IMG/VR virus record: IMGVR_UViG_3300025889_013270 | Coordinates: 1 to 21,057 of that record | Reading direction: 5' to 3' (one strand) | Source of the DNA: a virus | DNA: 21,057 nt | Notes under the pieces: generated by a model | The model's input: the letters and a program-made list of their open reading frames with translations, nothing else | Database searches by the model: none | What the model was told of the DNA's origin: nothing | Translations under genes and position numbers: made by a program | Shown here: positions 5,724-10,347 of the stretch, piece after piece | How positions within the stretch are numbered: the stretch's first letter is position 1 | Layout of the letters: each line of letters opens with the position of its first letter

Positions 5724-5752
5724 CCCCTGCCTAACGAGGTAGGGGTTTTTTT
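5724..5752 (+). terminator. Intrinsic terminator after the lysis cassette
   Basis: Nine-pair stem CCCCTGCCT / AGGTAGGGG (one G-T pair), loop AACG, followed by seven T. It closes the transcript ending with the second holin-like gene and insulates the downstream early control region. Confidence 0.9.
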
Positions 5753-5760
5753 GTGCCTTA

Positions 5761-5828
5761 CCCGCAAACCCGTAAAATTCCCGCACGATTCACGCAAACA
5801 CGCAAAATCCACGCATTTTTTACGCAAG
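5761..5828 (+). repeat. Two 30-bp repeat units of CGCA-core boxes (iteron/operator-like)
   Basis: CGCA or CGTA cores preceded by C or A start at 5763, 5771, 5782, 5793, 5801, 5812 and 5823, that is with spacing 8, 11, 11, 8, 11, 11. The units 5763-5792 and 5793-5822 are about two-thirds identical and a partial third unit starts at 5823. They lie between the lysis terminator and the early promoter, whose -7 box carries an inverted copy (TTTGCG). Spacing close to one helical turn suggests cooperative binding of a protein on one face of the DNA, as repressor/activator operators or origin iterons. Confidence 0.7.
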
Positions 5829-5830
5829 TC

Positions 5831-5860
5831 TTGGATGTATGTAAATGTTTACTATATTTG
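5831..5860 (+). promoter_or_regulatory. Bacteroidetes-type early promoter
   Basis: TTG at 5831-5833, 19-base spacer, then TATATTTG at 5853-5860, matching the Bacteroidetes consensus TTG/TTTG - 17-23 - TAnnTTTG. It lies about 30 bases before the ATG at 5890 and directly after the CGCA repeats, so it probably drives the early gene block through about 9262. Confidence 0.8.
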
Positions 5861-7971: not shown

Positions 7972-8099
7972 TGGAACGGTACGTGTACTTGTATCGAGAT
8001 GACGACGGCAACTATCAGTGGACTGCATCCATAATGGAAGCCGAACTCTTCAGTAACAGCACGTACTTTCAAATCGAAGTAATCTATGAGGCAATTTAA
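7971..8099 (+). CDS. Micro-ORF (42 aa), function unknown
   Basis: 42 codons, ATG at 7971 sharing a base with the upstream stop and ending inside the start of the replication gene (14-base overlap). Sequence begins MERYVYLYRDDDGNYQW and is compatible with a small beta hairpin protein. Support comes mainly from gap-filling and junction geometry. Confidence 0.45.
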   Translation: MERYVYLYRDDDGNYQWTASIMEAELFSNSTYFQIEVIYEAI

Positions 8100-8718
8100 A
8101 GGAATATGGATTCCAAGGGAAATCCTCGAACATCCCTTACTTCAACCCGTAGACAAAATTCTATGGGGTGACATCGACTCGTTTAACTGGAACGAACATA
8201 CGTTCTTTAAGTCGAACGATACGATAGCAGAAGAGTACGGAGTGAGTGAACGAACTATCAGTCGAGCAGTCGGTAGACTCAAAGAAGCTGGGCTGGTTAC
8301 GGTGACTTCAAACGGTCGGACTAGACACCTGTGTCCAGTCAGGGTAGACAATTTGTCTAGTCTGCCTAGACAATATGGCGACTCTGCCTCGCCAATTTGT
8401 CTACCTAATAAGAACAATATAATAAAACAATCTAAGAAAACAATAGATAGGACTCGCACGCCAAAAAACTTTGAAGAATGCGAGGACTATTTCTTTGAGA
8501 TTATGCCCGCAGGCAACGCCAAAGACCAGGCGATAGCGTTCTATGATTACTATTCCGCGAACGGCTGGGTGCAGGGCAAGAACAAACCCTTGAAAGATTG
8601 GAAAGCCTGTGCTAGATTGTGGGTTCGAAGAAGCAATGATTTTAAAAAGGAAAAAAATGGATTCAAAGGAGAAAACTTTAGCGTTGACGGAATCAACGAC
8701 TTTGTTGTTAACGGATAA
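8086..8718 (+). CDS. Replication initiator / replisome organiser (HTH N-terminus, DnaD-like C-terminus)
   Basis: 210 residues. Residues 1-80 form a winged-helix domain: WIPREILEHPLLQPVDKILW, then NDTIAEEYGVSERTISRAVGRLKEAGLV, quoted here in part as VSERTISRAVGRLKEAGLV, a clear HTH that binds DNA. Residues 80-127 are a polar linker of low complexity. Residues 128-185 (AIAFYDYYSANGW, KPLKDWKACARLWVRR) match the C-terminal DnaD-like pattern of phage replisome organisers that help load the helicase. Nucleotides encoding the linker hold clustered inverted repeats and an AT-rich stretch, as expected of an origin embedded in its own initiator gene. The next gene overlaps the end by 62 bases. Confidence 0.82.
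   Translation: MRQFKGIWIPREILEHPLLQPVDKILWGDIDSFNWNEHTFFKSNDTIAEEYGVSERTISRAVGRLKEAGLVTVTSNGRTRHLCPVRVDNLSSLPRQYGDSASPICLPNKNNIIKQSKKTIDRTRTPKNFEECEDYFFEIMPAGNAKDQAIAFYDYYSANGWVQGKNKPLKDWKACARLWVRRSNDFKKEKNGFKGENFSVDGINDFVVNG
8319..8452 (+). other. Candidate replication origin inside the initiator gene
   Basis: Repeats sharing a TAGACA core: an inverted pair CTAGACAC / GTGTCCAG at 8321-8338, the perfect palindrome TAGACAA-T-TTGTCTA at 8345-8359, and a 15-base inverted repeat 8367-8381 / 8389-8403 (13 of 15 matching) with a 7-base spacer. The element TCTGCCT recurs at 8361 and 8383, 22 bases apart. Directly after comes an AT-rich stretch, 8404-8450, with 10 G/C in 47 bases by hand count, a plausible unwinding element. 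The arrangement copies lambda-type origins placed in the linker of gene O. Confidence 0.7.
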
Positions 8719-9262
8719 AGAGGACAAGATGGGGCTAATCACGCCCGCTGACGCTTGGACAAAAGGCACGAACATACAAGTAGCCTTGAAGACTCATCCC
8801 GCTGTATGCCGTGGATGGATTATGTCGGAAGTAGGTAGGCTATGCAAAGACATAGATGCGAAGAAGACGTTGAGCAGTGACGAAGAGATGCGGTTTACGT
8901 GTCGGGCAATCATCGAGGAACACCCTACTATTACGCTTGAAGAAATCAAAGTCTGTTTTGATATGATTCGTATGGGCAAATTCGGGAAGCTGTACGAGCG
9001 TCTGAAGTCGGCAGAAATCCTGGAATGCTTACGGCGTTATGAAGGTGAGGTACGCACGGATATTATGGAAGCCAAACGACAGGCAGAAAAAGACGAATAC
9101 CGCAAATACACGGAGGAGAAACTTGAACCGTTAAATCTGGCGCAATTGGTAAAAGACAGCCCCAAGGCGAAAGGCAAAGGCATAGGAAGCAGACTCCGCG
9201 ACCACCTTGACGCATATGCAGAATATGACCCTACGCTTGCAGAAACGCAAAAAACGAATTAG
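8657..9262 (+). CDS. Replication-associated protein, possibly helicase-loading partner
   Basis: 201 residues from ATG 8657, which follows an AAGGA-rich leader; longer in-frame starts (TTG 8609, ATG 8639) run deeper into the preceding gene. The central part (TLEEIKVCFDMIRMGKFGKLYERLK, shown in part as IRMGKFGKLYERLKSAEILE) is a helical region found in proteins encoded just after HTH/DnaD-like initiators in Bacteroidetes phages. The C-terminal half is a highly charged helix (AEKDEYRKYTEEKLEPLN). There is no Walker A motif, so it is not itself an AAA+ loader. Helicase recruitment is inferred from position only. It overlaps the initiator by 62 bases and is last before a terminator. Confidence 0.65.
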   Translation: MDSKEKTLALTESTTLLLTDKEDKMGLITPADAWTKGTNIQVALKTHPAVCRGWIMSEVGRLCKDIDAKKTLSSDEEMRFTCRAIIEEHPTITLEEIKVCFDMIRMGKFGKLYERLKSAEILECLRRYEGEVRTDIMEAKRQAEKDEYRKYTEEKLEPLNLAQLVKDSPKAKGKGIGSRLRDHLDAYAEYDPTLAETQKTN

Positions 9263-9359: not shown

Positions 9360-9788
9360 GTGAGCGAGCGAACAAAAGCAGTCAAAGCACTAGACGCAGC
9401 GTACAGCATATACGTCCGTAAAAGCCACGCCGATGAATACGGTATGGTAGCTTGCTGGACGTGCGGCAAAAAAACGTACTGGGAAAAAGAAGGGATGCAG
9501 GCAGGACATTTCCAGACACGCAACAAGTACAGCACGCGATGGCATTACGAGGAGATAGGCGGTAAGGTAGTTACGCTGAATTGTAAGCCACAATGCGGTG
9601 GTTGCAATATGGTGATGGGTGGCAGGAACTACGAGTTTGGCAACCGTCTTAACCAAGTGTACGGAGAAGGCACAGCCGAACGTATTATTGCCGAGAGTAA
9701 TGCCTTACGCAAGTTCACCACGCCAGAGTTACGCGAGCTAACTCAATTCTTTAAGAAGCTAACCCACGACTGTGACCTGCATACATAA
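9360..9788 (+). CDS. ninG: NinG-like recombination/HNH-type protein
   Basis: 142 residues from GTG 9360. The signature CWTCG (C32, C35), MQAGHFQTR (His50), then LNCKPQCGGCN (C75, C79, C82) and MGGRNYEF match lambda NinG (Rap), a zinc-containing endonuclease-like protein that acts on recombination intermediates in phage DNA. The length is shorter than lambda NinG (about 200 residues) because the N-terminal part is reduced; this compact form is common in Bacteroidetes phages. Its end overlaps the sigma-like gene by 17 bases. It lies immediately behind a terminator, so its expression depends on read-through or a promoter I cannot see. Confidence 0.85.
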   Translation: MSERTKAVKALDAAYSIYVRKSHADEYGMVACWTCGKKTYWEKEGMQAGHFQTRNKYSTRWHYEEIGGKVVTLNCKPQCGGCNMVMGGRNYEFGNRLNQVYGEGTAERIIAESNALRKFTTPELRELTQFFKKLTHDCDLHT

Positions 9789-10347
9789 ATTTTGGTCGGA
9801 GAACTACAAAGAAATAATCACAATCTCCAGCATATATATAGAATCTAAATACGCTGAAGACTTGGTGAATGACATAGCCTTGACTATCTTCGAACGCGAA
9901 GACGACAAGTACGAGGCGATGTGCGAGCGGGGCGAGTTGCTTTGGTACATCATTAGATGGATTAAAATCTGCAACTTCTCCAAGACCACACGCTTCTACT
10001 ACAAGTACAAGAAATGGCAAGAGCATCTGACTTTCGAATATCCCCTCAATGCTTTGGGTACGATGCCCGACAGCTACAAGGAGATGGACTACAAAGAACA
10101 GCTAGAGAACGTAGAACATCTGCTGGACGATTTGTATTGGTTCGATGCCGAAATTTTCAAGGTATATTACCTGCATAATCACAGCATAAACACACTAACC
10201 GATGCCACAGGAATCAGTAGAAAAACAATCCAAGTCAGTCTCCAAAAAACCAAGGACTACATCAAAGCGAACATCGAAAAAGTCCAAGGGTCTGGGAGAC
10301 ACAATCGAAAAGATAACAGAAGCAACGGGAATAAAGGAGATAGTTGA
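9772..10347 (+). CDS. Sigma-70-like RNA polymerase factor
   Basis: 191 residues from GTG 9772. Residues 22-70 (IESKYAEDLVNDIALTIFER, LLWYIIRWIKICNF) resemble region 2 of small ECF-type sigma factors, which contacts core polymerase and the -10 box; residues 125-165 (AEIFKVYYLHNHSINTLTDATG, shown in part as HSINTLTDATGISRKTI) form a region-4-like HTH. The C-terminal tail after about 170 is polar and Asn/Arg-rich. Similar genes lie before terminase in Bacteroidetes phages. It probably redirects host polymerase to phage genes late in infection. The last 146 bases, including the HTH, overlap the next gene in another frame. Confidence 0.7.
   Translation: MTCIHKFWSENYKEIITISSIYIESKYAEDLVNDIALTIFEREDDKYEAMCERGELLWYIIRWIKICNFSKTTRFYYKYKKWQEHLTFEYPLNALGTMPDSYKEMDYKEQLENVEHLLDDLYWFDAEIFKVYYLHNHSINTLTDATGISRKTIQVSLQKTKDYIKANIEKVQGSGRHNRKDNRSNGNKGDS

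Follow-up and report, generated by a model that had tools for sequence, protein, structure and literature searches.

Replication origins located inside genes, as well as their exchange, are already known. In lambda-phi80 and lambda-82 hybrids, the N-terminal part of O reportedly travels together with its own ori. According to the lambda record and an excerpt of PMC7466680, initiator gene O contains in its central part four iterons of inverted symmetry with an AT-rich tract on their downstream side, and is followed by a second replication gene. For plasmid pSK41, an excerpt of PMC5703833 describes that Rep contacts, through its N-terminal domain, four boxes lying centrally inside rep, and that the middle of the protein is a dispensable linker. 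According to the same excerpt, the hybrid Rep of pPR9/pUSA03 has had its RepA_N domain replaced by a pfam13730 domain, whereby the replaced region includes the origin and the C-terminal part stays constant (PMC5703833).

The window analysed here, i.e., the whole stretch of 21,057 bases of virus record IMGVR_UViG_3300025889_013270, carries portal, terminase and NinG-like genes as well as an O-like initiator gene, in which the linker DNA between two folded halves harbors four sites arranged in tandem every 22 bp (Table 1). Both tandem repeats inside the initiator coding sequence and an adjoining AT-rich segment, as looked for in an in-gene iteron origin, were found. Judged from the sequence, array and AT-rich segment very probably constitute a phage replication origin, which lies in the linker codons of the initiator gene and would be bound by the winged helix of the initiator itself. 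This reading, already put forward in a preliminary description of the locus, is supported by most sequence tests, including the synonymous constraint on the linker, the conservation of the array, its AT-rich neighbor, the covariation of helix and site and the joint swaps of domain and array.

The preliminary description had termed the origin “lambda-like”, which holds for the architecture but not for homology. Like lambda, the locus has four iterons of inverted symmetry placed centrally in the initiator gene, an AT-rich tract downstream of them and a putative second replication gene behind the initiator, as far as lambda is covered by its record and the excerpt (PMC7466680), and the CCCCAAAATGGGG dyads of some relatives resemble lambda’s CCCTCAAAACGAGGG. 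However, the starts of lambda iterons are separated by 20, 24 and 23 bp, whereas the pitch in the window is 22 bp throughout, and the CAG box described below is absent between lambda iterons. Moreover, the profile of the initiator family (A5) did not match lambda O (best domain –1.9 bits), and that of the next gene (A4) did not match lambda P (best domain –3.0 bits). With respect to plasmids, the window carries the anatomical parts of the pSK41/pPR9 scheme, and its initiator resembles pPR9 Rep, as described in the excerpt, in featuring a PF13730 N-terminal domain (PMC5703833). Unlike RepA_N plasmids, it belongs to a phage, RepA_N (PF06970) is absent among the 18 Pfam families listed for the initiator up to E 0.05, and the likeness to pSK41 is drawn from the description in that excerpt. 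In its way of working, the system would resemble both lambda ori/O and the in-gene origins of RepA_N plasmids. Since neither a lambda O/P profile match nor a listed RepA_N match was obtained, we did not assign the system to either group. Among the open-licence PubMed Central papers listed by literature searches, no description was found of this initiator family, of a fixed 22-bp pitch combined with an unvarying CAG or of the pairing between helix and site.

Table 1. Features of the initiator gene and its surroundings (window coordinates).
Feature	Position	Strand	Remark
Initiator gene	8086..8718	+	210 aa: HTH_36 (PF13730) winged helix, linker, C-terminal domain
HTH_36 codons, aa 21-71	8146..8298	+	Pfam PF13730
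Iteron 1 dyad	8319..8340	.	GACTAGACAC-CT-GTGTCCAGTC; 9/10 paired
CAG spacer, iterons 1/2	8340..8342	+	phase-fitted alignment of arrays
Iteron 2 dyad	8345..8359	.	TAGACAATTTGTCTA; perfect 7+1+7
CTG spacer (other strand CAG), iterons 2/3	8362..8364	-	phase-fitted alignment of arrays
Iteron 3 dyad	8367..8381	.	TAGACAATATGGCGA; mixed half-sites
CTG spacer, iterons 3/4	8384..8386	-	phase-fitted alignment of arrays
Iteron 4 dyad	8389..8403	.	TCGCCAATTTGTCTA; mixed half-sites
AT-rich segment	8404..8447	.	79.5% AT; candidate DNA unwinding element
DUF6633-like gene, 201 aa	8657..9262	+	candidate helicase loader/primosome partner, by position only

On the protein level, the match of the initiator to PF13730 reached 33.5 bits (cut-off 25), with a recognition helix placed by the predicted model at about aa 55-67, and the C-terminal domain displays the motif YYxANGW...KDWKAxAR. 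In PHROG, the initiator matched families designated DnaD-like helicase loader, replication initiation protein and O-like, the O-like matches (e.g., phrog_678, E 1.6e-8) falling within the HTH. The linker, previously described as of low complexity, is not striking by eye in this respect; its residues 99-120 are, however, predicted to be disordered (pLDDT < 50). Among the solved structures nearest to the N-terminal model are 4pql (Z 9.6), 4pt7 (Z 9.4) and 5kbj (Z 8.9), which we take to be RepA proteins of staphylococcal plasmids, and other winged helices tie with them. Most structural neighbors of the N-terminal model are in fact transcription regulators, and the dyads resemble ordinary winged-helix operators; both would suit an operator bound within the gene by a phage regulator, be it the initiator or a different one, that tunes or blocks transcription with no origin function. 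We nevertheless regard this as unlikely, as the array lies about 230-320 bases inside the gene, and the downstream AT-rich segment and the matches to replication-initiator families are better explained by an origin. Autoregulation alongside the origin could coexist with it.

Aligned in register, the four units of the presumed origin read CTAGACACCTGTGTCCAGTCAG / GGTAGACAATTTGTCTAGTCTG / CCTAGACAATATGGCGACTCTG / CCTCGCCAATTTGTCTACCTAA and are followed by the AT-rich segment. Inverted repeats with TAGACA-type arms, a perfect 15-base palindrome and a 22-base-spaced direct repeat had all been noted before and are indeed present in the linker, the direct repeat in three copies. The earlier division into a direct repeat and three inverted ones does not stand, as the array consists of four 22-bp units. 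The dyad of iteron 2 represents the sole perfect 7+1+7 palindrome of the whole window, and outside the array the core pattern is matched with three mismatches at best; the counterpart of iteron 1 in relatives is AGGACAATATGTCCA. Likewise, the supposed “15/15 hairpin” does pair, but at 13 of 15 positions, and its two sides are the adjacent iterons 3 and 4. A role of the inverted repeats as mRNA hairpins controlling translation or decay appears very unlikely to us: a strong fold is predicted for the window (z –5.27) and for the relative L097 (z –3.54), but in two of the four sequences it is not kept (L045, z –0.37; L067, z –1.20) while the array is kept in both. In addition, the arms of iterons 3 and 4 mismatch each other, yet every arm fits one half-site type, no Rfam match was obtained, and hairpins do not predict the covariation with the recognition helix described below.

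The 44 bases of the AT-rich segment are the most AT-rich in the window, no other stretch reaching that level, and their location right downstream of the repeats, as initially reported, was confirmed. For 20 of the 27 clusters analysed, the gene-wide AT maximum starts at most 22 nt from where the array ends; it does not lie beside the array in the remaining seven, including three (L045, L053 and L055) in which the fitted array itself extends into the AT segment. GC skew shows no sign change at 8.4 kb and thus gives the origin reading no support, and an exact-pattern search detected no DnaA box.

The preliminary description had proposed a comparison of the linker DNA in related phages, and the array turned out to be kept despite protein divergence. 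Relatives of 57-63% protein identity (L007-like, L014, L015, L030-like, L033 and L034) retain four 22-bp units with changed dyads, and in some relatives the dyads are altered on both arms, e.g., GGAC/GTCC in unit 1 beside AGAC/GTCT in unit 2. For a broader survey, the best 80 of 191 confirmed relatives from a scan with the C-terminal domain were used, giving 31 protein clusters together with the window, and the strongest in-gene repeat at lags of 14 to 30 was evaluated by its shuffle p. In this set, 24 of 31 initiator clusters feature an in-gene 22-bp array (p ≤ 0.0015), and a clear one is missing in seven. These seven comprise L069 (lag 22 bp, p 0.017), L103 and L112 (lag 23 bp, p 0.003 and 0.41, respectively), L120 and L076, whose lags of 18 bp (p 0.001) and 24 bp (p 0.0005) are multiples of 3 and lie inside repetitive peptides, and finally L074 (p 0.15) and L116 (p 0.066), for which no in-gene array was found at lags 14 to 30.

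Further genes were taken from the best 80 of each scan (160 rows, 347 confirmed relatives), where most contigs were already in the set; 17 new-looking ones were analysed, a number that does not include, among others, L188, L200, L208 and L209. Lag 22 was obtained at p ≤ 0.005 in seven of the 17 and lag 23 at p 0.0005 in three. The other seven show neither: L199 and L239 have lag 21 (p 0.035 and 0.0075), L197, L280 and L281 lag 16 (p 0.023, 0.027 and 0.002), and in L185 and L267 the in-gene repeat test gave nothing significant. In L194, L196 and L198, the in-gene arrays are 23-bp instead of 22-bp and come with other recognition helices. None of 104 neighboring control ORFs had lag 22 at a score of at least 16, and three reached p < 0.005; these ORFs, from the window and from downstream of initiators, were chosen mechanically and include some spurious frames. 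Psychrobacter phage Y8A (L039), a named and annotated relative, has no linker array, its best repeat lying in the C-terminal part, while 23-bp linker repeats occur in faecal phage L040 and 18-bp ones in L038 (all three assessed without codon shuffles). In the L040 initiator (1417-2112), the repeats contain CTGCA/TGCAG dyads and are followed by A-rich DNA, although the N-terminal domain of this protein differs. A tblastn search retrieved no relatives in genome contigs.

Apart from the pitch, the arrays have a constant element in common. After phase fitting, CAG or CTG stands between dyads in 89 of 98 units, compared with a mean of 30.5 and a maximum of 45 in 1,000 codon shuffles evaluated in the same, fixed phases; as phase fitting maximises shared information, the box is partly selected by the fit. 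It occurs in all three reading phases, where it codes for different residues, and in the window it is on the other strand in two of the three spacers. Of the nine units lacking it, seven are trailing ones that lie within the AT segment or next to it (L045, L053, L055 and L069).

The half-sites, in turn, vary with the recognition helix. Helices of the S(E/Q)RT type go along with TAGACA arms, those of the SRPT type with CCGTAAA or GGAAAG arms and those of the S(R/K)NT type with CCCC arms, while the PRTVQR helix is paired with TCGCC and the SQTKVSN helix with CTTACAA arms. Across 27 clusters, site distance correlates with helix distance (Mantel r 0.57, p 0.0002; r 0.53 with residues 1-45 partialled out), although p values of this kind are too small, since clusters related by descent are counted as separate points. 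There was no correlation of site distance with the C-terminal domain (r 0.08, p 0.13, 27 clusters) or, once the helix was allowed for, with residues 1-45 (r –0.01, p 0.49). The sets for covariation, phase fit, AT position and CAG shuffles consist of clusters with a clear 22-bp array plus L069, leaving aside L119 and L115, which have 22-bp arrays but other N-terminal domains, and L203, L191 and L207, near-duplicates among the further genes.

Closely related pairs point in the same direction. In L096/L097, the C-terminal codons are 99% identical and the wing-linker 50%, and the helices SRNTVGR and SRPTVSK go with CCCCAAAATGGGG and CCGTAAAATATTTACGG dyads, respectively. Considering L096/L097, L067/L068/L078 and L100/L114 together, 94-99% identity in the C-terminal codons stands against 44-67% in the helix and 46-62% in the wing-linker. 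By sequence comparison, DNA-binding domain and array have thus been exchanged jointly against a near-identical C-terminal half. In contrast to the lambdoid O/ori exchange, these are natural swaps among environmental phages and involve a different initiator family. The breakpoints of module exchange lie near the array, as could be expected if it had another DNA function, i.e., as a recombination hot spot, a packaging start or an incompatibility site. Such a function is extremely unlikely in our view: the large terminase gene is about 3 kb away, and a packaging site is not expected to track the helix of the initiator.

A more specific proposal for the in-gene origin is a two-part code, for and against which we see the case as evenly balanced. 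The 22-bp pitch, the CAG separating the dyads and a CAA-type center would make up its invariant part, recognised through DNA shape or by conserved portions of the initiator, and the recognition helix would read the variable half-site. As the sites lie in the codons that directly follow the helix, helix and origin would travel as a single cassette. If true, a single crossover would swap replication specificity, while the C-terminal domain and the next gene are kept.

The array is also distinguished from what the protein alone would impose. In 20,000 codon shuffles, which preserve the protein and redraw codons from window usage, the 22-bp self-similarity was equalled once, and 22 was the best lag of the linker between 9 and 33. 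The best palindrome was rarely matched (p 0.017), whereas the palindrome density of the linker was not unusual against the same shuffles (p 0.32). Because 22 is not divisible by 3, the reading frame changes from one unit to the next, and no protein repeat accounts for the units. Consistently, synonymous codons are kept in the linker and not in the flanking domain, which bears out the earlier suggestion of a constraint on the linker DNA beyond the protein: at conserved residues, codons identical between the window and L007 amount to 14/20 in the iterons, 9/10 in the AT segment and 17/48 in residues 1-75, with corresponding values of 16/22, 9/9 and 14/46 for L014 and 12/18, 6/8 and 19/46 for L015. 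A chance or protein-driven repeat, for which the predicted disorder of a tolerant linker might speak, is contradicted by the protein-preserving shuffles, the three reading frames and the conservation, and we practically discard it. At positions 5734-5853, the window has its sole other place where 93-base short-lag self-similarity equals that of the origin.

Regarding the mechanism, binding, opening, helicase loading and origin activity are inferred from lambda and RepA_N plasmids. In this scheme, the initiator would bind with its N-terminal winged helix to the four 22-bp-spaced dyads, which, being about two helical turns apart, would all be presented on one face, and the resulting strain would open the neighboring AT-rich segment. 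Recruiting the helicase would then fall to the C-terminal domain together with the next gene’s product, as suggested by the gene order and by analogy to lambda. The match of this next gene to DUF6633 is weak and found in 16 of 24 members of its family. Judged by eye, an AAA+ (DnaC-like) gene occupies its place in L115 and a DnaB-like gene in L116, hinting at its product as a candidate helicase loader. A structure search with its model (mean pLDDT 70.6) gave no useful match, the lambda P fold included, and since this search was uninformative, the proposed role is based on position. In many relatives, this next gene (8657-9262) retains its position.

Systems of this kind are also of interest beyond the single phage, as they offer a sequence-only route to origins of uncultured phages. 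The five half-site types of the covariation set provide a natural matched set of recognition helices and DNA sites, allowing a direct test of the protein-DNA recognition code and of whether in-gene origins keep initiator and origin compatible.

Further genes of the window were noted in passing. Downstream of the replication genes, 9772-10347 encodes a weakly sigma-factor-like protein (phrog_1740, E 0.0027), and similar proteins occur in relatives. ORF 1514-2518, directly ahead of the portal gene, shows, by eye, a metalloprotease motif of HExxH-like type as well as dockerin-like Asp/Asn repeats at its C-terminus, an unusual finding in a phage.
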